The notes under the pieces are model-generated. The model saw nothing but the letters and a program-made list of their open reading frames with translations. It did not search any database and was not told where the DNA came from. From a virus, in IMG/VR virus record IMGVR_UViG_3300003410_000058, positions 1 through 20,981 of that record: a stretch of 20,981 bases of DNA. One strand, written 5' to 3'. A program made the translations under genes and the position numbers. Positions 1 through 15,629 of the stretch are shown here, piece by piece. The first letter of the stretch is position 1; each line of letters opens with the position of its first letter.

Positions 1-678
1 AACAATGTAGTCGATATTAAACCATTCCAAAAGCCTAAAAAACAGGTTGAAATACTTCCAAGAAATAGAAATCAAGAAAGCTACGTGTTATCACTGCTCG
101 ATCAAACGAAAGACATAGTCTTTGGCATCGGTCCAGCAGGAACTGGCAAAACTCTATTGGCTGTGCAAGTAGCTGTCAAAATGTTTAAAGAAGGTGCTGT
201 TGACAAGATTATTGTTACACGCCCGGCTGTTTCGGTTGACGAAGATTTAGGATTCTTACCAGGTACGCTAGAAGAAAAAATGGCACCATGGACAAGACCT
301 ATCTTTGACGTACTAAAAGAGTATTTTAGTGCAGCTGAGATCACTGGAATGATTCAGGAAGGCATCATTGAAATATCACCATTAGCATATATGCGTGGTA
401 GAACTTTCAAGCGTTCGTTTATTTTAGCAGACGAAATGCAGAACGCAACACCAAACCAGATGAAGATGTTGTTAACACGTCTAGGCGAAGAGTCTATGAT
501 GGCAGTAACAGGCGATCTCAATCAAGCAGATAGATTAAAAGATAATGGCTTAATTGATTTTACTAATCGATTAGAAAACGGCAATCAATCATGTTTGGAC
601 ATAGTCCACTTTGCGCAAGGAGATATCGAAAGACACGCAGCAGTTAAGGCTGTCCTTCAAGTTTATGGTGATGAATAA
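1..678 (+). CDS. phoH: PhoH-like P-loop ATPase, 5' end cut by window edge
   Basis: The reading frame is open from the first base, and the residues before the first possible GTG start at 85 (IKPFQKP..., then LPRNRNQ) look like the usual PhoH N-terminal lead-in, so the gene probably begins left of the window; 225 codons are visible. A Walker A motif GPAGTGKT lies at codons 44-51 (bases 130-153) and a Walker B-like ILADE at codons 141-145. PhoH proteins are cytoplasmic ATPases related to the helicase domain of RNA/DNA helicases; they are common in marine T4-like phages, where their role is unsettled (phosphate stress or RNA metabolism have been proposed). It is the only rightward gene here and its last 35 bases overlap the convergent dCMP deaminase gene. 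Family assignment is firm; function is not. Confidence 0.93.
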   Translation, partial: NNVVDIKPFQKPKKQVEILPRNRNQESYVLSLLDQTKDIVFGIGPAGTGKTLLAVQVAVKMFKEGAVDKIIVTRPAVSVDEDLGFLPGTLEEKMAPWTRPIFDVLKEYFSAAEITGMIQEGIIEISPLAYMRGRTFKRSFILADEMQNATPNQMKMLLTRLGEESMMAVTGDLNQADRLKDNGLIDFTNRLENGNQSCLDIVHFAQGDIERHAAVKAVLQVYGDE

Positions 679-1096
679 CTTCAACATCTGACTTGTTCAA
701 AAAATCAATGCCCTGTGTGCTACGATATTCATTTTTGTAGTACACAGTGGCTATTCCACTTTGATATATTAGTTTAGCACAGTCAATACAAGGCTGGTGT
801 GTAACAAACATTGTTGCACCCTCTCCGCTTTCGGGACTTTTTGCTAGTTTAGCAATTGCGTTAGACTCGGCATGTAGTACTTCTGGTTTAGACTTTAGAA
901 TAGTATTGCCCCAATCGTCCTCACCATTCCATTCTTCGCAACAGTTGTCCCATCCTGCGGGCATGCCGTTATATCCAATAGATATAATACGATCATCCTT
1001 AACAACAATAGCGCCCACTTGTAGACGCTGTGCTGAACTTAGTTGTGCAAAACGTTCTGCAACGTCCATGTATGCTTCAATAAACTTAGGTTTCAT
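644..1096 (-). CDS. cd: Deoxycytidylate (dCMP) deaminase
   Basis: A 150-residue zinc enzyme that would convert dCMP to dUMP, feeding the thymidylate synthase encoded in the same array. The zinc site is visible as HAE at residues 75-77 and PCIDC at 102-106 (H75, E77, C103, C106). The substrate-side signature GYNGMPAGWDN follows at residues 41-51. I chose the ATG at 1096 because it forms an ATGA overlap with the stop of the preceding gene; the open frame extends back to 1171, but that stretch lies inside the preceding gene. It is shorter than T4 Cd (about 193 residues), which is usual for marine T4-like phages. It is the last gene of the leftward array and its 3' end overlaps the end of phoH. 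Confidence 0.94.
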   Translation of the reverse strand: MKPKFIEAYMDVAERFAQLSSAQRLQVGAIVVKDDRIISIGYNGMPAGWDNCCEEWNGEDDWGNTILKSKPEVLHAESNAIAKLAKSPESGEGATMFVTHQPCIDCAKLIYQSGIATVYYKNEYRSTQGIDFLNKSDVEVIHHHKLEGQP

Positions 1097-1332
1097 TTTG
1101 ACCATTCCAATATAAACATTGTTAATAATTTGTCTGTAGGTAAGATTAAAGTCATGCCCTGCATCTTGCATTTATTCTTAGAGCACCATGCTAATAGTTT
1201 ATCGACAGTTTCTTCAGCACCCCAAAACTTGTAGTCTGTTAGAATTATTAAGTGTCCAGGGTCTTCGTGAAGCACACTGTCTGCTATAATGAATCGATTG
1301 ATTTTCCAATCTGCAAGTATGTCTTCATTCAT
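1093..1332 (-). CDS. Small hypothetical phage protein (79 aa)
   Basis: I do not recognise this family. The start at 1332 was chosen because its ATG overlaps the preceding stop as ATGA; a longer start at 1386 would overlap the upstream gene heavily. It encodes MNEDILADWK at the N-terminus, ends LEWSK, and alternates short hydrophobic strands (RFIIAD, LIILTD, MTLILP) with a helical segment rich in Trp, Lys and Cys (LLAWCSKNKCK), which suggests a small alpha/beta fold. No signal peptide or membrane segment is evident. Its stop overlaps the dCMP deaminase start (ATGA at 1093-1096), so translation is probably coupled within the nucleotide-metabolism array. Function is unknown. Confidence 0.7.
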   Translation of the reverse strand: MNEDILADWKINRFIIADSVLHEDPGHLIILTDYKFWGAEETVDKLLAWCSKNKCKMQGMTLILPTDKLLTMFILEWSK

Positions 1333-2296: not shown

Positions 2297-3163
2297 TTAT
2301 ACCGCCATCGGTGCTTTAATACTATCCATAGGATCGTAATTATTCAGTTTATATTGTGCAGGCACAGTCTTTACAAGCTCGTCTAAATTAGTAAACGCAG
2401 GCATTTCTAGTGTAGGACCAGCAACTGGTGTTCTTATAATCTGCTGCTTTACTTGTTCAAAGTGATTTTGGTAGATGTGACAATCGCCACCAGTCCAAAC
2501 AAAGTCACCGACCTTCAACCCAAGAAGTTGTGCAAACATATGTGTGAGAAGACTGTAGCTGGCTATGTTAAAAGGTACACCCAAGAACATATCAGCGCTG
2601 CGCTGATACAATTGACAACTTAGTTCACCGTCTTGAATATGAAACTGAAACATAGTATGACAAGGAGGCAATGCCATTACATTTACTCTGTCAGCATTCC
2701 AAGCACTTACAATATGACGTCTACTATTGGGGTCATAGTACATATTTTCCAGTACTTCTGCAATTTGATCTACAAATCCAAGTGCAGCATCCCAGGTTCG
2801 CCATTGATGCCCGTACACAGGTCCTAGGTCCTTTACTGTATCTGTGTTAACATAGCCTAGGTCTTTTGCTTGTTTGTTGGCATTAGCAGTCCATATGGTG
2901 TTTTTGCCCACTAGTTCTTCACGTGGCTTACCGTAATGTATCTCAGCTAGCCTACGTTCGTCACTTGAACCTTCCAAGAACCATAGCAGTTCACTTACTA
3001 CACTCTTCCAAGCAAGCTTCTTTGTAGTAACAGCAGGAAATTCGTTGCGCAAATCAAAACGCATTTGATGTCCGAATACACCGCGTGTGCCTACACCTGT
3101 TCTGTCGTCACGATCTTTGCCATGTAGTAAAATATGATGTAATGCGTCTAAATACTGTTTCAA
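2297..3163 (-). CDS. thyA: Thymidylate synthase (ThyA type, TTG start)
   Basis: A 288-residue ThyA-family enzyme that would methylate dUMP to dTMP using methylene-tetrahydrofolate. Visible features are the phosphate-binding DRTG at residues 20-23, GPVYGHQWR at 114-122, the catalytic cysteine C168 in LPPCHTMFQF, QLYQRSADMFLG at 184-195, PFNIASY at 197-203, and the C-terminal IKAPMAV that closes over the active site. I chose the TTG at 3163: it gives MKQYLDAL, aligning with the E. coli start MKQYLELM, it lies about 6 bases after AGGAA, and it overlaps the DHFR stop as TTGA. The upstream in-frame TTG at 3184 is less likely. The DHFR-TS order matches T4 frd-td. Confidence 0.97.
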   Translation of the reverse strand: MKQYLDALHHILLHGKDRDDRTGVGTRGVFGHQMRFDLRNEFPAVTTKKLAWKSVVSELLWFLEGSSDERRLAEIHYGKPREELVGKNTIWTANANKQAKDLGYVNTDTVKDLGPVYGHQWRTWDAALGFVDQIAEVLENMYYDPNSRRHIVSAWNADRVNVMALPPCHTMFQFHIQDGELSCQLYQRSADMFLGVPFNIASYSLLTHMFAQLLGLKVGDFVWTGGDCHIYQNHFEQVKQQIIRTPVAGPTLEMPAFTNLDELVKTVPAQYKLNNYDPMDSIKAPMAV

Positions 3164-3654
3164 TCTGCTTTCCTTTTCTTCCAAATTTCAAAAGTTACAT
3201 CGTCGTGTGCTTCTGACCAAGTTTTTTCAAACAAACTTTCAATTTTTCTAATAGGCAAGTGTGCATCACACTCGTATGTGCCTGGAATACGACTAATATA
3301 AAACTCGTCAATAACGCCCAGTGTCTGTTCAATAACATTAGGACCACCGATTACCCAAGTAATCAATCCACTGTACTTAGCTTCAACGCTGCGCACACCT
3401 TCAATAATATCACCGTTGACGAAATCATCTGCAAGCGGACAGTTTTCAGGCTTGCTGGTTACAACAACGTTCTTGCGTTTAGGCATAGGCTTTGGCATGT
3501 CCGGATCGAGATATGTTGCACTGCCCATTACCACTACATGACCTACAGTGTTGTCTTTGAACCATTGAAAGTCACGTTTGACGTGCGGCCACGGAAGTGT
3601 GCCTTTGTTGCCTACTCCGCCGTTCTCGTCACATGCTAATATTGCTTTAATCAT
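3160..3654 (-). CDS. folA: Dihydrofolate reductase
   Basis: A 164-residue DHFR (T4 Frd equivalent) that reduces dihydrofolate to tetrahydrofolate with NADPH, regenerating the cofactor consumed by the thymidylate synthase next to it. Signature elements are the N-terminal [28 protein letters not shown] with the presumed catalytic acid D28, VVMGSATY for the NADPH phosphate region, and [10 protein letters not shown] with the glycine pair. Length is typical of bacterial and phage DHFRs. Its ATG overlaps the ferredoxin stop (ATGA at 3651-3654), and its own stop overlaps the TS start (TTGA), so the two enzymes should be translated together. Confidence 0.95.
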
Positions 3655-3998
3655 TCTATTACCTTTACTGGAATAATTCCAAATTCCTCATATTTATTAG
3701 GTACGCCATCAAATGCTTCATGATCTGTCATAGGGTCTTTTTCTTCTGTAATATTTACGCCCCATTCAGAAACTTCTCTATTAATAGCATCCCATTTTTC
3801 TCGTTCATCAAACTCAAGAGCACTATCTAATACAATGGCACTCACTGGACACTCTGGTTCACAAACACCACAGTCGATACATTCGTCTGGATTAATTGCT
3901 AAAAAATTATCTGCTTCGTAAAAACAATCAACTGGACAAACTGAGATGCATGTTGTATGTTTGCATTGTACACAGTTGTCAGTTACTAAGTATGTCAT
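3651..3998 (-). CDS. fdxA: 7Fe ferredoxin, FdxA type (3Fe-4S plus 4Fe-4S)
   Basis: A 115-residue soluble electron carrier closely resembling Azotobacter FdI and proteobacterial FdxA. All nine cysteines of that family are present: C9, C17 and C50 would bind the 3Fe-4S cluster and C21, C40, C43 and C46 the 4Fe-4S cluster, with C12 and C25 as the extra conserved ones. The long C-terminal tail with NITEEKDP is also typical. One difference: the acidic residue of AvFdI (D15) that couples protonation to the 3Fe cluster is Thr16 here. The gene lies between clamp loader and DHFR with one-base and ATGA overlaps, so it is an integral member of the array. Likely an auxiliary metabolic gene taken from a host; the redox partner is unknown. 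Confidence 0.95.
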
Positions 3999-4912
3999 TA
4001 TAACCTCGCTAATCTAATTAATGTTGCGGCTAAGTTAATTTCTGGATCTGCAACTAATGCATGATCTACTAACCCTTGTTTAATAGTTAGCACTGCGCTG
4101 TCCTGTTGTTCTTCGTTTCCGAACAGCTCGATGTTGTCATACAGCCAACGATAGATTTCATCCATCTCTTCTGGCAATACTTGGCTACAAATAAGTTTAC
4201 GTGCTTCTGTAATTTTACCTGCTTTAAACAAGTCCACCATCTCAAGTTTATAGTCACTTGTTGACGCATCTGCGTTCTTAGTAATCAGTGTACCTGTTTG
4301 CGACTCCAATTGCACAGTGTTGATACATTTACGCAAGTCTGGATAGTAAGCCTTGACATACGTATCTAAGGTGTCTAGTTCAAACTGTACGCTCTCTGTA
4401 AGCAGGATCTCTGCCATACGTGCTGTAAACTCTACCTGATCAATCTTAGCAATGTGCATGTGCTGACAGCGACTGTGGATAGCTGGCATAATCTTGTTAG
4501 GATAGTTACAGGTTAGGATAAAGCGCACACTGTGACTGTAGTCTTCCATCAAGTTACGTAGTGCAGGCTGCACACTGTTGATGTTCATGTAGTCTGCTTC
4601 GTCAATAAGCACAACCTTAAAGTCACCAAACGGCATAGTCTGACAGAATGTAATAAGTTTGTCAACCCATTCAATCTTACGTGCTTCTTTAGATCCGTTA
4701 GCAATCATAACGTCAGTGTCTTGCACATCAAGTTGATTGATAAGAATCTTAGCAATAGTTGTTTTACCTAGCCCTGCACTACCACTCAACAAAATATGCG
4801 GAATACTACCACTGTCAATCCAACCTTTGATTTGTTCACGCTGCGATTCGTCACGAAACACGTACCCATCTACACTTTTAGGACGATACTTTTCTACCCA
4901 TAATTCTTTCAT
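3998..4912 (-). CDS. 44: Sliding-clamp loader ATPase subunit (T4 gp44-like)
   Basis: A 304-residue AAA+ protein close in size to T4 gp44 (319 residues). It begins [10 protein letters not shown], the RFC/gp44 signature, followed by Walker A GSAGLGKT at residues 44-51, Walker B VVLIDEAD near residue 105, sensor 1 ILTCNYP, and the SRC arginine finger (HSRCQH). It would load the ring-shaped sliding clamp onto primer-template DNA for the phage polymerase, using ATP. In T4 it works with gp62, whose gene is normally adjacent; I see no gp62-like gene next to this one, so it may lie elsewhere, be very divergent or be absent. The ATG at 4912 lies 4 bases after the upstream stop, and its TAA overlaps the ferredoxin ATG by one base. 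Confidence 0.95.
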
Positions 4913-4916
4913 TAGT

Positions 4917-5420
4917 TTATCCTTCTGTTAAGTCGTACTTAAAGTTTTGTGTTGTACTGTTAATAGCAATTTGTTTTGCACCATTGCGTATGTGAAAATG
5001 TGTAGCCATAGGAGTTAGCGGACTTAATGTTACTAGCGTTTTTATACTGTCTGATTTTCTCATTAGTTCGCCTACCTTGCCAATAAGTTCTTTTCCTGCG
5101 CCGCGCTTGCGACTCCATACAGTATAAGCAACTGCTGTATCTGCATCTTCTTTAAAATATGCGTTTTGACTCATAAGATCTAGTTCTTTAGTACTGCAAG
5201 GTATGTCATTTGTGTAAGCAATACAAATAATTCCTTCAATTTCATCTTGATACTTTAGCCCGTATATTTTTCTTCCATAGTTAGTACGCCATTCTAAATC
5301 AAGTTCCGGACGTACCGGATCTTCACTTACATCAATATCTTCTAATTCAACTAGCTCAGTAACTTTAACCCATCCAAAGAAGTTGTCAATTTTATTCTTA
5401 AACTTTTTAACTTTACTCAT
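4917..5420 (-). CDS. GNAT-like acyltransferase domain protein
   Basis: A 167-residue protein whose second half resembles the GNAT acetyltransferase fold. It has a beta strand AVAYTVW (96-102), the R-x-x-G-x-G/A-type acyl-CoA pyrophosphate loop RKRGAGKEL (104-112) at the start of a helix, a strand LVTLSPLTPMA (129-139), and HFHIRNGAKQI (141-151), as in the final GNAT helix and strand. The N-terminus is basic (SKVKKFKNK). The target is unknown: it could modify a host or phage protein, or be a non-enzymatic relative. The ATG at 5420 overlaps the preceding stop as ATGA. The fold is a reading of motifs, not a confirmed match. Confidence 0.72.
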   Translation of the reverse strand: MSKVKKFKNKIDNFFGWVKVTELVELEDIDVSEDPVRPELDLEWRTNYGRKIYGLKYQDEIEGIICIAYTNDIPCSTKELDLMSQNAYFKEDADTAVAYTVWSRKRGAGKELIGKVGELMRKSDSIKTLVTLSPLTPMATHFHIRNGAKQIAINSTTQNFKYDLTEG

Positions 5421-5704
5421 TCGACCAACTTACTCCATATCTTTAGTTTATCACGTTTAGTAGCTATTCTAGCATCAATTTCTTCTTTTGTCAACAAGCC
5501 ACACTCGATCATTAGATCAATCAAACATTGTACATCGCCCACTTCTTCTAGCAGTTTGGTGCGATTGTTGATTGCAATTTCGTTGTCTTCTAGTGCTTGT
5601 TCAATTGTATCAAACTTGCGAATAATTTTACTACAGCGTTGTGCAAGTTCGCCGCACTCTTCCATAGTAATAACCATAAGCTCTTGTAATTTGTTTAATG
5701 GCAT
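5417..5704 (-). CDS. MazG-like nucleotide pyrophosphohydrolase (95 aa)
   Basis: A small all-alpha NTP pyrophosphohydrolase of the MazG type, which would hydrolyse (d)NTPs or related nucleotides to monophosphate and pyrophosphate with Mg2+. The metal-binding pattern is visible as EECGE (E15, E16, E19) and EEVGD (E53, E54, D57) on two predicted helices. At 95 residues it is a single-domain form. Phage MazG proteins have been linked to removal of non-canonical nucleotides or to altering host alarmone/nucleotide pools; which applies cannot be read here. Its ATG at 5704 overlaps the exonuclease stop by one base and its stop overlaps the GNAT-like gene start (ATGA). A second MazG-like gene lies at 7168-7524. 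Confidence 0.85.
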   Translation of the reverse strand: MPLNKLQELMVITMEECGELAQRCSKIIRKFDTIEQALEDNEIAINNRTKLLEEVGDVQCLIDLMIECGLLTKEEIDARIATKRDKLKIWSKLVE

Positions 5705-6243
5705 TAGCGTTGAACTCCTAGTTCTTTGTATGCAAACTGCACACCCTTTGCTTGGAAGTAAGCGTCTGCTAGTGCGTTGTGCAAGTCAGTCTGTTGCAGA
5801 ACTTTGCGTGGATCGACTTTACAGCATCCGAAAAGTGTACGAGCATCTTTGATTTGCCAAAACTGCCAAGGAATGGGAACACCTAGCATACGATACATAT
5901 CTTCCATAATAGTCAAGTCAAAGCCATAGCCTTGTCCCCAGATAGTATCAACACCTACGCTCCATTTGCTTACTTGACGCAGTGCTTCTTCTACAGTCAC
6001 AGCACCAGTCTGATCAAATGCTTCTTCCATTGCTTTAGGATCTTGTTTAGCCCACCATGCAATAGTATCATCGCTTGTGGTACGTCCTAAGCGATCCTGA
6101 TCGTCTACACTAACTTTAAGATAGAGTTCACTGTGTGGCTCACTATCGTCAAATGGATTAAATTTGATTGCTCCTAAACTTAGTACAGTACAACTGGGTT
6201 TTGTATCCAGTGTTTCTAAGTCAATCATTCCGTGAGTAGCCAT
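5704..6243 (-). CDS. dexA: DEDDh 3'-5' exonuclease, DexA-like
   Basis: A 179-residue RNase H-fold exonuclease. The DEDDh acidic residues are in place: D8 and E10 in MIDLET, D109 in GFDLTIMED, and H155 with D160 in LHNALADA. TSDDTIAWWAKQDP near residue 56 and QFWQIKDARTL near residue 127 recall T4 DexA (STIEWWKNQSPEA and KFWNQRDIRT there), although this protein is shorter than DexA (227 residues). It would degrade single-stranded DNA 3' to 5', helping host DNA breakdown or end processing; a generic Rnt/DnaQ-like role is the alternative. The ATG at 6243 lies two bases after the 53-residue peptide's stop, placing it second in the array. Confidence 0.88.
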   Translation of the reverse strand: MATHGMIDLETLDTKPSCTVLSLGAIKFNPFDDSEPHSELYLKVSVDDQDRLGRTTSDDTIAWWAKQDPKAMEEAFDQTGAVTVEEALRQVSKWSVGVDTIWGQGYGFDLTIMEDMYRMLGVPIPWQFWQIKDARTLFGCCKVDPRKVLQQTDLHNALADAYFQAKGVQFAYKELGVQR

Positions 6244-7167: not shown

Positions 7168-7524
7168 TTATGCTTTTACAAATTTGTCTAGTTCAGGCGC
7201 TTTCCAATTTGACGGTTTCAATACTTTCCCGTCTTCTCTCTTGCGCACTTTGCCAGTCTCTGGATCAATCTTTGCAAAGTTTGTGTCCATTACTTCTTCC
7301 CATGCGCCTTCTCCGTCAAATCCGCCTGCTCTGATAGCACCCATAGTAACAACTAGGATATCTACTAGTGCATCAAGTTGTTCTACCTTGTCATCTGCTG
7401 CTACCGCTTCTACAAGCTCGCTTACTTCTTCGTCAATAAGCGACAAGTACATCTTGTAGTTTGCGTCACTAGGCTCTTGGTCACACGCTTTTTGAAACGT
7501 GTCAATATCTTTAAATGGATTCAT
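7168..7524 (-). CDS. MazG/HisE-like nucleotide pyrophosphohydrolase (118 aa)
   Basis: A second all-alpha NTP pyrophosphohydrolase, not closely similar to the one at 5417-5704. The metal-binding helices are visible as DEEVSELVEA (E32, E33, E36) and EQLDALVD (E48, D51, D55). The C-terminal half has the pattern GEGAWEEVMDTNFAKI, then GKVRKREDGKVLKPSNWKAPEL, typical of phage phosphoribosyl-ATP-pyrophosphohydrolase-like proteins, where the DGK segment contacts substrate. It would hydrolyse (d)NTPs or modified nucleotides. The start is supported by GAGGAAC before the ATG at 7524. The gene sits between GroES-like and SGNH genes and could share a transcript with both. Confidence 0.88.
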   Translation of the reverse strand: MNPFKDIDTFQKACDQEPSDANYKMYLSLIDEEVSELVEAVAADDKVEQLDALVDILVVTMGAIRAGGFDGEGAWEEVMDTNFAKIDPETGKVRKREDGKVLKPSNWKAPELDKFVKA

Positions 7525-7533
7525 TTGTTCCTC

Positions 7534-7932
7534 TTACATGAATGCTGATGGGTCAATTGTTGCATGTTCGCCGTCACCGTACTCTCCGCCGATTTGAACG
7601 CCTTCTGGTTTCTCGTTTGATACTGCTAGAATACTCTCGCTTTCTACCATACGATATTCTTTTTCGCCTGTTCCGTCGTCGACTAGCATACTGCGTGTCC
7701 AACGTCCGTGTTCTATAAGAATCCAGTCACCTGCTGCATACTCGTCTTTGTTGTCTGGACCTTTATCATATACTCTAGCCCACCGAGGATAGATGCCCCG
7801 AGTCGTGCCGTCGTCGTCCTTGATGATAAGTCCGCCCGCAGTCTTTTGTTCGCCAAAATACATATCAGTCACAAGTACTCTGTTTCCGATAGCACGTAGA
7901 CTGCCTTCGATTGCATTAAGATTTATAGCCAT
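7534..7932 (-). CDS. groES: GroES-like co-chaperonin (T4 gp31 counterpart)
   Basis: A 132-residue protein with the GroES fold signature: a start strand LRAIGNRVLVTD (12-23), the mobile-loop region with KTAGGLIIKDD (30-40) that contacts GroEL, GDWILIEHG (68-76), and the closing strand ESESILAVSNE (97-107). The C-terminal tail of about 25 residues extends beyond bacterial GroES (about 97). In T4, gp31 replaces GroES to let host GroEL fold the major capsid protein; the same job is likely here. Its ATG overlaps the preceding stop by one base (TAATG), coupling it to the 139-residue protein upstream. Confidence 0.9.
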   Translation of the reverse strand: MAINLNAIEGSLRAIGNRVLVTDMYFGEQKTAGGLIIKDDDGTTRGIYPRWARVYDKGPDNKDEYAAGDWILIEHGRWTRSMLVDDGTGEKEYRMVESESILAVSNEKPEGVQIGGEYGDGEHATIDPSAFM

Positions 7933-8365: not shown

Positions 8366-8383
8366 ATTATATACTTACTTATC
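8366..8383 (-). promoter_or_regulatory. Weak candidate promoter before the 139-aa protein
   Basis: Reading leftward, GATAAGTA (8376-8383) differs by one base from the GATAAATA late-promoter core found before three tail genes and stands 25 bases before the ATG at 8351, the same distance. A TATAAT string (8366-8371) follows, but no -35 box lies at a suitable distance. Either or neither may be functional. Confidence 0.3.
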
Positions 8384-8900
8384 TCAAGAACTCTCTCCAA
8401 TCCAGGTCAAACTGGATTGAATTAATACGATGTACACCTATCAAATACAACACATAACTTGCTACACTTGATCCGCGTCCTACGCCCCATACAATATCAT
8501 TCTCACGCATAAAGTCTACAAGATAGATCATATAACGTAACAAGTTCATCATTCCTCTACCTTCAAACTCTGCAAGTTCTTCAGCGGACCTTGCTGTTTC
8601 GTCTTGTGTAGTACATTTTGTAAGAACGTAGTTGTGTACGTTTAGTGTTTTGTATTCATCAGGCATAAACCATTCACCTTGACATACACCGTCAAAAGTC
8701 TTTTGATCTACATCTAGGGGAATATATTTCTGTAGTTTGTCAAAGCCTTGTTCTTCCATCGCAGCATTGAACTTGTCTACATCGTCGTCAGCATCACACA
8801 ACACTACATGCACCTTATCCGCATGACCACTATAGATCATATCGACTAAGTCTTTGTTTGTAAATCGTGGAATACCAAGTTTGTCAGTTTTCATAAGCAT
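8379..8900 (-). CDS. DnaE-like (Pol III alpha) fragment protein, lacks catalytic aspartates
   Basis: A 173-residue protein whose C-terminal 50 residues match bacterial DNA polymerase III alpha at the start of the palm: YMIYLVDFMRENDI, then GVGRGSSVASYVLYLIG, then FDLDWREFL, corresponding to DnaE YFLIVWDFIR, GPGRGSGAGSLVAY, and the FERFL stretch. The protein stops exactly where DnaE would continue to the PDFDxDF motif carrying catalytic aspartates, so it cannot polymerise alone. The middle part (GEWFMPDEYKTLNV) also resembles the DnaE segment before the palm. No remaining DnaE sequence follows; a different gene lies 28 bases downstream. It is intact with clean boundaries, so it is more likely a conserved repurposed fragment than decay. 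A nucleotide- or primer-binding role is plausible but unproven. Confidence 0.8.
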   Translation of the reverse strand: MLMKTDKLGIPRFTNKDLVDMIYSGHADKVHVVLCDADDDVDKFNAAMEEQGFDKLQKYIPLDVDQKTFDGVCQGEWFMPDEYKTLNVHNYVLTKCTTQDETARSAEELAEFEGRGMMNLLRYMIYLVDFMRENDIVWGVGRGSSVASYVLYLIGVHRINSIQFDLDWREFLR

Positions 8901-12700: not shown

Positions 12701-13279
12701 GGTTACTGAATAGTCTATCGGAACGCCAGAGAATGGAGCACTATCATAACCTCCTCCAATATTTCGTTTATCTAAACTGAGCAATGGCTCAGTAGTGCCT
12801 TGCAGCCTTCCGTCATCTGATAGTGTAATACCTACCGGAAGTGTGCCATCGCCATCAGCAATAAAATATGAAAGTTCATCGCCTGCACTTAAATCAGAAT
12901 CAGTTGCTACTAACTGATAATCGACAATTTCGTTATCGAGGATAAACAAGCTATTGTTTGAACCAATTGGCAATAGTCCTTCGTTAGTTTGCCATGTAGG
13001 ACTATCTGGACCAGTAACTACAAACTCAATAGTACAGTCTTGAAAACCTTCGTCGGTTGTTGCTCGGAACACAGCATTAAATGTTGTATCATATGCAACT
13101 TCATATACTGTGCCTACTATTATATTATTTTCTAGTCTTGACCCTGTGGGAATTTTGCCACTAATTAATTCTACGTCAGCAGTAATACCATTTGCTAATG
13201 GCAACGGAATATTAACCTGAGTTCTTTCGATTAGTGTTCTAAGACGATTTCCAGTTGCAACATTCCATAATTTTAACAT
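9767..13279 (-). CDS. Large virion protein with Ig-like (He_PIG-type) modules
   Basis: An 1170-residue protein, probably a long tail or baseplate fibre. Beta-sandwich modules recur with the putative Ig pattern LPxGxxL..DGxxxGxP followed by a YxFTVxAxD strand: around residues 40-90 (GKIPTGSRLENNIIVGT), 145-240 (GTLPVGITLSDDGRLQG and FAVTVTDGENFVRREF), about 325-370 (ELPPGMELDSQTGEVIGRIP), and about 740-810 (KLPFGLTLNYDGEIIGTP). Two copies of a W-ITP-x-DLG motif precede the latter modules. The last 95 residues (NYLPLWMRTAQTGFEELDY, then IPICYCKPGE, then DIDRYIV) form a distinct domain that I associate with marine T4-like structural proteins. No signal peptide. The start is supported by AAGGA before ATG and a late-promoter core 23 bases upstream. 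Confidence 0.85.
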   Translation of the reverse strand: MLKLWNVATGNRLRTLIERTQVNIPLPLANGITADVELISGKIPTGSRLENNIIVGTVYEVAYDTTFNAVFRATTDEGFQDCTIEFVVTGPDSPTWQTNEGLLPIGSNNSLFILDNEIVDYQLVATDSDLSAGDELSYFIADGDGTLPVGITLSDDGRLQGTTEPLLSLDKRNIGGGYDSAPFSGVPIDYSVTSSNGYGSFYYDTVDFDYNEPTANLRKLNRYYPFAVTVTDGENFVRREFKIYLVGDDYLKADNTIMQASTGVFTADNTNVRTPVWITPTDLGFKRANNYTTIYLEIVDNWTLEGVVVYTLEDVNDDGTPSELPPGMELDSQTGEVIGRIPYQPAITQNYRFTVRATRITTDLETVTIFANFYEDVLLGNNSFKINKIDLTGDIDGTNDLFELVGKKILLGKRQYTVTNVDARNTDYDIIFVDETLAPSINLQLSQTATVGQDHIFISRLTEAAKTKYTNRTLRFSNTETYTLNTFTPYIEWQVTQTTANDPFLPAYSPRVIEVNENYFIGDYVINTIETGGDGKIYQCTVSHSTASQKDEFGDDILVEGIVQLDFISANWQEVAETLEDLSLADRITATEQALEAEYNDTAYITVIDDLNWRIRVPSTSYSRIRSNIQDFFAGSDSSDIVATLIRDNEDKITLDKNLISQLNNGRNIGISLFAKDSFFKNLIVASNDEIDIPSTVKTFEVRVIGEIDSNINWITPADLGNINANFTSTLKLIAETTVPDTAMIYTLKSGKLPFGLTLNYDGEIIGTPRQFGTVDNPGLTTFENLAVTWDGSLPGDTTFDRSYKFTVEARDRFNYTAIEREFSLNVVDLNRTKYTDIYMRPMLPTDQKTYYKNFISNPEVFTPNKIYRPSDTTFGIQKNLDMLVYAGVEAASIDKFIAAAAKGHKRKKYILGDIKSAVAKESATSDTIYEVVYIEVKDPANSTVANTKTAESFKIKNKEKITVDSIQYAVVDDATRFNAGYNQLAIGTRSTVRFVFGQTDEIIIDTRAPAEEELNVDDADFEITVRDGGTVTIELQKGESEPYRFRPKTNTIKTDSNAVNVSQSNDSVRYISSIDNMRANIKTIGEEERNYLPLWMRTAQTGFEELDYITAIPICYCKPGEAASIINNIKNYGFDPKIINYDIDRYIVKQTENSDVEKFVLFANYQFNV

Positions 13280-13301
13280 TAAATAGATTCCTTATACAAC
13301 G

Positions 13302-13310
13302 TATTTATCG
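13302..13310 (-). promoter_or_regulatory. T4-type late promoter core before the 1170-aa virion gene
   Basis: CGATAAATA on the minus strand in the 39-base gap between two structural genes, 23 bases before the ATG at 13279. It is identical in all nine bases to those at 9755 and 18644. Confidence 0.65.
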
Positions 13311-13318
13311 GAAATATG

Positions 13319-14077
13319 TTATACAGCAATTGTGCCGAGATCAAGTGTTGTAGTATTAGGTGTAAGTATAGACCCGCCGTCTACATCAGTATTAACTATT
13401 AAATATTCTAATATATTAGACACAGTAGGAAACATTTGACCAAAGTCTGCCACGTTGTCTCCGAGAATGTTACGTATATCAATGTTGTGGACCAGGCCTG
13501 TCACGTTTCCTACAACATTACCTGTTACGTTTCCTACAACATTACCTGTTACGTTCCCTGTTAAAGGACCATTAATTCCGGAACTAGTAATAGTGCCTAC
13601 ATTTAATAGATTATTTGCCTGTGCATCAAGATCACCACTTAATTGAGGAGATAAATCTGATACCAAATCGGTAATACCTGTATACTCAACAGTAAGCACA
13701 CCGTCTACAATCTCTGTGCTAATGTCTGCTCCACCAGTTATAGTTAATGCTGCACTATCCTCTAATACAACATCACCTGTGTCAGCAGTAATAGTCAAAT
13801 CACTTACACCACGGTCTGCGGCTATCACAATCTTATTATCATCAGCAGTCAATGTTACATTTGAACCAGCACTAATTTTTTTAAACTCTAAGTCATATGA
13901 ACTTCTACGGAAGAATAAGCCTTCTCCAGTGTCTCCTAAGTTACTAGCAGACGTTTGTTCATCATCACGTAAGTCTAACTCTTCAAAGTTTGAATTAATT
14001 TTGATCATTGCTTCACGAAGATCATCACCTGTTCCATCGTTTGCAACATTGCCTATATTAATTAATTGTACTGCCAT
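13319..14077 (-). CDS. Tail-fibre-like protein with GNVTGNVV repeats (252 aa)
   Basis: A 252-residue beta-rich protein. The first 35 residues (INIGNVANDGTGDDLREAMI, then KINSNFEELD) are the same kind of adaptor module seen in the 67-residue protein at 18660-18863, probably a trimer-forming or attachment head. A beta-helix-like middle (LTITADTGDVVLEDSAAL) follows, then a GNVTGNVVGNVTG repeat encoded by a 24-bp tandem DNA repeat. The C-terminus (TVSNILEYLIVNTDVDGG) is distinct. A likely fibre or spike component. The ATG at 14077 is placed by AGGAAG upstream and lies two bases after the protease stop, so the two are probably co-translated. Confidence 0.8.
   Translation of the reverse strand: MAVQLINIGNVANDGTGDDLREAMIKINSNFEELDLRDDEQTSASNLGDTGEGLFFRRSSYDLEFKKISAGSNVTLTADDNKIVIAADRGVSDLTITADTGDVVLEDSAALTITGGADISTEIVDGVLTVEYTGITDLVSDLSPQLSGDLDAQANNLLNVGTITSSGINGPLTGNVTGNVVGNVTGNVVGNVTGLVHNIDIRNILGDNVADFGQMFPTVSNILEYLIVNTDVDGGSILTPNTTTLDLGTIAV
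13497..13562. repeat. 24-bp tandem repeat, about 2.75 copies, within a fibre gene
   Basis: The unit CCTGTYACGTTTCCTACAAC plus ATTA repeats at 13497-13520 and 13521-13544, with a partial third copy to 13562 that has one base change. Each unit encodes eight residues of the GNVTGNVV series in the minus-strand gene. The period is a multiple of three, so copy-number changes keep frame. Confidence 0.85.
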
Positions 14078-14078
14078 T

Positions 14079-15629
14079 TTATCTTCCTAATTTCATTTGA
14101 ACATTACTATTGAACTTGTTAAATGCAAATCTATTTTCGCCACCTAACAAACTACGTGTGTCAGTATAAGCAACTGCGCTTGCAGTGTCGTATAGTTGTA
14201 CAGTTTTAGCAGTAGAGTTAATAAACGACAACCCTTGTGCAGGCGTTGCATTGGGATTTAATTGAAGCCACAATGCTAGTAATCCTGCAACTTGTGGACT
14301 TGCCATACTTGTGCCGCCTATGTTATTAATTAAGAATGTAGCATCTGCTGGATAAGGGTTGTCAACTAAGGTAGCACCAAATCTATTAGTTGTACTCATT
14401 GCACTCATAATATCTGTGCCTGGAGCATACACACTTACACCTGGACCGCACTCTGAACTAGCTGATTTTTGTTCTAATCCTCCTGTGTGTTCTGCACTAT
14501 CAATGTTGCCTACTATATGTGCTTCGTCGTCATAAGGACTAGAACCTCTTTGATAAGATACTGAGCCAGTATTTGCTGCCATAAAGTTATCATAGTCATC
14601 GCCGCCTGCAACATCAATCTTATGACTCCTGTTTCCTGCTGCAACACACACATGTATTCCGGCATCAATCATTAATTGCACATCAGCATCAACTGATGCT
14701 AGCCTTAAATTTGTTGCAAATCTGCCATTGCTTGTAGTTGGTGGCAATCCAAATGCCCAACGTTTTGCTGTGGTATCAATATCTGTACCTGTTTTTAAAT
14801 CGCCTCTGTATGTAAGGTTAGTAACAGTATCATAACGTCTTAAATAACCCCAACTGTGATTAACAACTGTTGGTCTTTTATAACCTGTTGCAGGATCTAC
14901 TGCTTTAGCATTGTGCCACGCTATAATAACGTCAGCCATAGCAGTAACAGTGATACCGCTATTTGGATCTGTTGGGCCTTCTAAGCCAGCTAATTTTATA
15001 CTATAAATTTTAGCGTTTTTGGCCCAGCCATATGTTTTGCCTGCCAGTGTGCCAGCAACGTGTGTGCCGTGTCCGTCATAGTCTGTGTAATGTTCTGGCG
15101 GCATTGTTCCAGAAACACCACTTACATCAAACCAGTCAATTTCTTGTACTCTGCTTACTCCATCAGCATCTTGAAATTCTGGATGATCAGCTTGTATGCC
15201 GCTATCTACAATAACAACATCAACACCTGTGCCGTCTAGTGTGTAATTATATCCGCCTGTAACGTTGACACCAGTATAGGGATTAGTAGCTTCGTTCATT
15301 CTACGCATGCCCCAATTTAAAAACTCGCCGCGGTCCAGTGTGGTTTTTGTAAACAGACCAGTTTGCTCGGCTCTAACTCCGATACCTGTATCTGGATCTA
15401 AATCGGGCAGCAAATCAACACCATAAACTCTTGAATCATTTTTCAGTGCTTCTGCTTCGTCGTCTGTTAAATTATAATGTGTGTTACGAGTATTAGTAGC
15501 ACGTTGATCTGCAACGTTAACAGTGCGTCCAGGTATTGCTCCAGCTCCTGTAGTTGCAATCATTTCTTGATTAAATGCTACGTGATCTACACCTCTGTTT
15601 AAACTTACAATATATTCTTTTTCACTCAT
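14079..15629 (-). CDS. Subtilisin-family (S8) serine protease
   Basis: A 516-residue subtilase with the full catalytic set: D142 in VVIVDSGIQADHP, H187 in YDGHGTHVAGT, oxyanion Asn N333 in VAAGNRS, and nucleophile S441 in GGTSMASPQVAGL. The first 100 residues (KEYIVSLNRGVD, then YNLTDDEAEALKNDSRV) resemble the I9 propeptide inhibitor fold, so it may mature by self-cleavage. There is no signal peptide, consistent with action in the infected cell or as part of the particle. It lies between fibre genes, so plausible roles are cleavage or maturation of fibre proteins, or digestion of host surface proteins during adsorption. The T4 prohead protease (gp21) is unrelated. ATG at 15629 follows AGGAAAATAAA. 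Confidence 0.95.
   Translation of the reverse strand: MSEKEYIVSLNRGVDHVAFNQEMIATTGAGAIPGRTVNVADQRATNTRNTHYNLTDDEAEALKNDSRVYGVDLLPDLDPDTGIGVRAEQTGLFTKTTLDRGEFLNWGMRRMNEATNPYTGVNVTGGYNYTLDGTGVDVVIVDSGIQADHPEFQDADGVSRVQEIDWFDVSGVSGTMPPEHYTDYDGHGTHVAGTLAGKTYGWAKNAKIYSIKLAGLEGPTDPNSGITVTAMADVIIAWHNAKAVDPATGYKRPTVVNHSWGYLRRYDTVTNLTYRGDLKTGTDIDTTAKRWAFGLPPTTSNGRFATNLRLASVDADVQLMIDAGIHVCVAAGNRSHKIDVAGGDDYDNFMAANTGSVSYQRGSSPYDDEAHIVGNIDSAEHTGGLEQKSASSECGPGVSVYAPGTDIMSAMSTTNRFGATLVDNPYPADATFLINNIGGTSMASPQVAGLLALWLQLNPNATPAQGLSFINSTAKTVQLYDTASAVAYTDTRSLLGGENRFAFNKFNSNVQMKLGR

Follow-up and report, generated by a model that had tools for sequence, protein, structure and literature searches.

Gene organization at the fdxA locus

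The DNA analyzed here, referred to below as the window, is an IMG/VR virus record of 20,981 bases. It carries an array of replication and dTMP genes (Table 1), and within this array lies an intact reading frame, running from an ATG start to a TGA stop, for a ferredoxin of the FdxA family. A preliminary description of the window had credited this protein with the nine cysteines of the Azotobacter ferredoxin I (FdI)/FdxA family, and all nine are present in FdI spacing: Cys 9, 12, 17, 21, 25, 40, 43, 46, and 50 correspond to C8, 11, 16, 20, 24, 39, 42, 45, and 49 of FdI, giving the 7Fe pattern CxxCxxxxCxxxCPxxC followed by CxxCxxCxxxCP. The Pfam domains found are Fer4 and DUF3470 (PF11953, 37.1 versus a cut-off of 23.2), the NCBIfam equivalog FdxA_Protbact (NF045490) is matched at 136.3 bits (cut-off 135), and phmmer retrieves FdI structures with an E-value of ~1e-34. 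An AlphaFold (AF2) model built from 31 phage sequences (pLDDT 84) superimposes on Azotobacter FdI with TM-scores of 0.83/0.90 at 1.4 Å, its top 24 PDB matches are all FdI (1.4-1.5 Å), and the structural alignment yields ∼53% identity. These comparisons confirm the reading frame as an intact FdxA-family ferredoxin, predicted to be of the 7Fe type. The plant-type 2Fe-2S domain Fer2 has no match in the window FdxA, for which Pfam gives the two domains above only, and no grouping with PetF was found. Family membership and fold thus rule out a PetF-like phage ferredoxin, in agreement with the initial assignment to FdxA.

Table 1. Features of the window and of the 84-kb contig (G001) assigned to the same phage
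Feature	Position	Strand	Basis or remark
PhoH-like gene	1..678	+	Pfam; 5' end off window, far border of array
dCMP deaminase	644..1171	-	Pfam and PHROG; member of array
Thymidylate synthase ThyA	2297..3184	-	Pfam
Dihydrofolate reductase (DHFR)	3160..3654	-	Pfam, synteny; downstream neighbour of fdxA
fdxA, 7Fe ([3Fe-4S][4Fe-4S]) ferredoxin, 115 aa	3651..3998	-	ORF, Pfam, NCBIfam, phmmer, model
DUF3470 extension, C-terminal, residues 67-106	3681..3800	-	Pfam; typical of proteobacterial FdxA
Nine-cysteine cluster-binding region, Cys9 to Cys50, Thr16 at FdI D15 position	3849..3974	-	Alignment to FdI
Clamp loader subunit, T4 gp44-like	3998..4912	-	Synteny anchor; upstream neighbour of fdxA
3'-5' exoribonuclease-like (Rv2179c-like)	5704..6243	-	Pfam; syntenic, upstream of gp44
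MazG-like pyrophosphohydrolase and GroES-like/gp31-like genes	7168..7932	-	Syntenic block
Radical-SAM protein, weak B12-binding match	G001 13170-14774
A-type carrier (IscA)	G001:56461-56826
QueD-like protein	G001 62234-62683

The overlapping start and stop signals noted earlier on both sides of fdxA are borne out to the base: 1 nt is common to the gp44 stop and the fdxA start (TAATG, 3996-4000), and 4 nt are common to the fdxA stop and the DHFR start (ATGA, 3651-3654). Because of these overlaps, fdxA is probably produced together with the replication genes. An 84-kb IMG/VR contig (G001, locus L002) holds the whole gene array of the window, with 100% identity in every protein compared, and we treat it as the window's own phage.

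Several other genes of this phage are worth recording. A stand-alone protein of 173 amino acids (window 8379-8900, minus strand; PHROG 11127, DNA polymerase) is kept in nearly all syntenic loci, and its GVGRGSSVASYVLYLIGVHRI stretch resembles a piece of bacterial Pol III alpha. A subtilisin-like protease (window 14079-15629, minus strand; PHROG 3677, protease) lies amid tail-fibre-type genes. Adjoining the phage IscA gene, a 424-aa protein (G001:57374-58648, minus strand; L098) has a start resembling a signal peptide and a haem-c-like CxxCH motif.

Conservation of fdxA among phages

A scan of IMG/VR revealed at least 596 viral stretches encoding FdxA relatives. Loss of cluster cysteines was looked for in these relatives and none was found, all nine being kept in 80 of the 80 copies examined, and the median dN/dS of fdxA is 0.07 (44 pairs). 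The synteny survey placed gp44 upstream of fdxA within 5 kb at 58 of 80 loci, at 20 of those 58 within 20 nt. fdxA is thus a conserved phage gene under purifying selection; the number of relatives, the synteny, and the dN/dS rule out a recent chance capture and agree with the initial view of an established phage gene embedded in a replication/dTMP array. The PHROG family that matches FdxA, phrog_8732, is annotated as of unknown function in the library used, and fdxA has therefore likely been overlooked in hundreds of contigs.

The phage record collection returned only seven FdxA matches, with no convincing isolate record among them: three longer records are bacterial-looking, and the other four are short unannotated faecal records with 47-68% query cover. 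The inspected stretches of Acinetobacter phage MD-2021a (CAKLQH02/CAKLQF02) and of Microcystis phage MaAM05 (MW495066) carry chromosomal housekeeping genes, and both were rejected as isolate phages with FdxA, the first looking like a mislabelled bacterial contig and the second apparently being one too. Phage-labelled records of this sort mislead searches for phage metabolic genes.

Iron-sulphur and electron transfer genes in related phages

At some loci fdxA occupies other positions. Four of them (L063, L065, L071, and L075) share the order SufT-like (PF01883), fdxA, FTR1/EfeU-like, Nfu, adenine phosphoribosyltransferase (Apt), and A-type carrier, the FTR1/EfeU-like gene being missing from L075. 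This gene, directly downstream of fdxA (L065:8275-8910 / G016:36619-37254), encodes a short putative iron permease with a partial match to the family model. On contig G113 (locus L369), a ferredoxin-NADP reductase gene (fpr, 4001-4708) is separated by 7 nt from fdxA (4716-5057), with radical-SAM reading frames on both flanks; the same contig encodes a family B DNA polymerase, ThyX, a QueD-like protein, and a SAM synthetase (L397:587-1687, minus strand).

FPR-like genes share a contig with fdxA on G002, G007, G008, G010, and G016, and a scan starting from FPR located fdxA on G090, G095, G099, G104, and G113. Seven of the eight contigs of at least 179 kb that were checked for both genes carry both, G018 having FdxA only. 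Contigs found through FPR carry FdxA in 6 of 35 cases overall, in 4/4 at lengths of at least 180 kb and in 2/31 among the short ones, and the low overall figure is likely explained by short fragments. The phage FPR matches PF00175, has ferredoxin-NADP reductase as its best NCBIfam match (below the equivalog cut-off), and finds solved ferredoxin-NADP reductases (4f7d, 2bgi, 1a8p) as its best PDB matches. FPR is nearly missing from the phage record collection (nine matches, several of them bacterial-looking); an unverified record of Pseudomonas phage Y12 has an FPR match.

Genes for cluster assembly accompany fdxA as well. An A-type carrier is present on 17 of the 19 fdxA contigs of at least 60 kb, including that of the window's own phage, IscU on 9/26 contigs and Nfu on 7/31; desulfurase-family proteins are encoded on G002 and G090, and locus L005 has an iscS-iscU pair with an IscS-type desulfurase. 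Flavodoxin, the usual alternative electron donor, was found on just one of 21 contigs. Radical-SAM matches number 23 on G010, 18 each on G008, G016, and G019, 16 on G015, 10 on G018, and one in the window's phage. Arrays of radical-SAM/SPASM-like genes, 18-23 per contig, were seen on G016 (L101-L111), G008 (L082-L095), and G010 (L112-L120). Contig G007 (237 kb), which carries both FdxA and FPR, gave no radical-SAM match; this weakens radical SAM as the only client of FdxA and suggests that there may be others.

The preliminary description had recommended a check for Nrd or another Fe-S-dependent enzyme elsewhere in the window's genome. On the 84-kb contig, a partial genome, this brought to light the single radical-SAM gene; NrdB was not found there, nor were FPR and IscU, and the two places occupied by FPR in G008 and G010 are without it on this contig. 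A close relative, G002 (FdxA 75%), has FPR, two IscU, IscA, and a desulfurase-family gene.

A proposed role for FdxA

We propose, with a probability of about 0.5, that electrons pass from NADPH through FPR, either viral or host, to FdxA and from there to phage Fe-S assembly and radical-SAM enzymes. The observations behind this are the identity of fdxA, its conservation, purifying selection, and synteny, and the FPR, IscA, IscU, desulfurase, Nfu, SufT-like, and radical-SAM genes co-encoded in relatives; the electron path and the clients are what we infer. ISC assembly requires electrons from ferredoxin. This need, taken together with the support that a ferredoxin and its NADP reductase give to the radical-SAM enzyme MiaB (cited in PMC10470005), favours the FPR-FdxA chain. 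The fdxA product is predicted to be a working low-potential 7Fe ferredoxin, and would act as a soluble carrier between FPR and its clients, with NADPH as the source. Its electrons would be used to assemble clusters on the phages' IscU and A-type carriers (persulphide reduction and the coupling of [2Fe-2S] to [4Fe-4S] clusters) and to activate phage radical-SAM enzymes reductively. In phages that do not have an FPR of their own, and the window's phage may be one, FdxA would be charged by the host FPR. We counted against this proposal that the commonest position of fdxA adjoins DNA/dTMP genes rather than Fe-S genes, that the 84-kb contig of the window's phage showed neither FPR nor IscU nor NrdB, that G007 gave no radical-SAM match, and that so few of the FPR contigs (6/35) carry FdxA.

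The phages with FdxA, which are uncultured, aquatic, largely marine, and have bacterial hosts, may thus carry out some of their iron-sulphur chemistry themselves while infecting the host. A wider picture, which we put forward tentatively and at somewhat less than even odds, is that a widespread, uncultured lineage of large aquatic T4-like phages has a largely self-supplied Fe-S economy. In it, an iron permease-like protein, cysteine desulfurase, IscU, A-type carrier, Nfu, and SufT-like protein would build clusters, FPR and FdxA would supply electrons, a SAM synthetase would contribute in one case, and dozens of radical-SAM enzymes would be the clients, with FdxA as the most constant electron-transfer part.

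Alternative roles, bacterial kin, and residue 16

FdxA could instead serve dNTP synthesis, either by maintaining or reactivating the cofactor of the phage class I ribonucleotide reductase, in the manner of YfaE, or by feeding ThyX. A link to nucleotide synthesis had been raised at the outset, and part of it stands: the window's fdxA sits in a dTMP array, a minor separate lineage (L053-L060) places a thyA-like gene, dCMP deaminase, and fdxA next to one another, ThyX lies directly downstream of fdxA in many loci, and NrdB is found on 8/21 contigs, including 5/5 of those of at least 179 kb tested. The neighbouring genes speak against it. A single slot between fdxA and dcd/phoH (window 2297-3654; loci L002-L081) is filled by either DHFR-ThyA or ThyX, and the 58 syntenic loci divide into 29 with ThyX, 24 with ThyA (usually accompanied by DHFR), five with neither, and none with both. 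Along the FdxA tree, the type of thymidylate synthase switches some 11 times and fdxA is retained throughout, which rules out ThyX as its constant partner, and a neighbour that is constantly replaced is an unlikely reason for keeping the gene. Moreover, neither DHFR nor ThyA needs a ferredoxin, fdxA placed elsewhere lies in the Fe-S assembly operon or in the fpr-fdxA operon between radical-SAM genes, and the NrdA-NrdB genes of G008 are far from fdxA and have a glutaredoxin neighbour of their own. YfaE, the small ferredoxin thought to maintain or reactivate the class I ribonucleotide reductase cofactor, is a 2Fe-2S protein. A search for literature on ThyX with ferredoxin yielded nothing useful. 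Overall we consider a role in dNTP synthesis unlikely.

A second alternative is a host-directed gene without a dedicated viral partner, whose product would top up the host FdxA pool for electron flow or oxidative-stress repair, or feed a lipid desaturase or oxygenases. The protein search and phylogeny suggested earlier for finding the donor lineage bear on this. Our bacterial sample comprised 35 named genomes reached via a ThyA scan; within it, the best match to the window FdxA is that of the alphaproteobacterial Roseibium (64-66%), in the usual CarD context, followed by other alphaproteobacterial FdxA at 47-59% and gammaproteobacterial ones at ∼50%. By sequence, the kin of phage FdxA is alphaproteobacterial FdxA, with the donor placed to class level only in this sample and on a low-resolution tree. 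Such kinship would suit a host-directed gene, as would the many phages in which no FPR is seen, an acyl desaturase gene 4-5 kb from fdxA on G016, and the 2OG-oxygenases that are frequent fdxA neighbours. Yet viral FPR and Fe-S genes accompany fdxA, and the phage copies are diverse and largely apart from the bacterial ones: phage and bacterial labels change three times on the tree versus 22.8 times when shuffled, on a weakly resolved tree of few columns where some intermixing with alphaproteobacterial-type FdxA is seen. This suggests an old acquisition followed by long evolution in phages, and we regard the host-directed role as similarly unlikely. The closest bacterial ThyA (69%, L198) sits in a Marinimicrobia assembly, possibly a hint to the host or else a phage contig.

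The window FdxA has Thr16 in place of the Asp15 that adjoins the 3Fe cluster of FdI, a residue that is common, yet not obligate for FdxA/FdI membership. Among phage copies this position is Asp in 72/87 and Thr in 15/87, and it is Asp in 24/24 scorable bacterial copies. The residue had been read correctly in the preliminary description; about nine Asp/Thr changes on the FdxA tree make it a recurrent substitution and no special mark of the window's phage. That FdxA is non-catalytic, a redox or iron sensor, a regulator, or a structural part, might draw on this Thr, absent from the 24 bacterial copies, which could alter 3Fe proton coupling, but is very improbable given the Asp retained in most phage copies and the nine cysteines, FdI fold, and strong purifying selection expected of an electron carrier.

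Comparison with known systems

The reading we prefer, a chain from FPR through FdxA to Fe-S assembly and radical-SAM enzymes, can be set against several known systems. Phage FdxA resembles Azotobacter vinelandii ferredoxin I and proteobacterial FdxA (NF045490) in its nine cysteines, their spacing, the DUF3470 tail, and the fold; it differs in being encoded in a replication array, in the Thr at the D15 position (in the window), and in a C-terminal tail that is longer in some phage clades. The PetF-type ferredoxins of cyanophages are likewise phage-borne and feed reductive enzymes, but they are 2Fe-2S proteins of unrelated fold and their hosts are phototrophs. A Nitrospirota-phage from Lake Baikal encodes a 4Fe ferredoxin 86% identical to that of its host, which was read as serving dark carbon fixation, and a second phage population there has one gene for Fe-S biosynthesis and another for a desaturase (PMC7678222). 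The former is also a phage-borne Fe-S ferredoxin; unlike phage FdxA, it appears from its identity to the host protein to have been acquired recently.

A precedent at the level of gene content comes from the marine T4-like phages for which Nishimura et al. (2017; PMC5332604) proposed an Fe-S network; their genes include A-type carrier, IscU, grx, and paaD (SufT family), together with as many as 12 radical-SAM genes on a single phage. Ferredoxin appears nowhere in the main text of that paper, which does not appear to name a reductase; relative to the phages described there, those studied here also have FdxA, FPR, Nfu, an IscS-type desulfurase, and FTR1-like genes. Fe-S-rich gene sets in marine phages have thus already been published, and what appears to be new, in the open literature covered, is the FdxA/FPR branch, the conserved location of fdxA within the replication array, and how large the family is. 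Across these loci fdxA stays fixed while the adjoining thymidylate synthase changes type. What powers the phage radical-SAM and Fe-S enzymes is left open in the main text of Nishimura et al., and a conserved FdxA with a matching FPR is a concrete candidate for the electron source. The bacterial FPR/ferredoxin system for MiaB (cited in PMC10470005) follows the same path, from NADPH through a reductase and a ferredoxin to a radical-SAM enzyme, with cellular rather than phage proteins.
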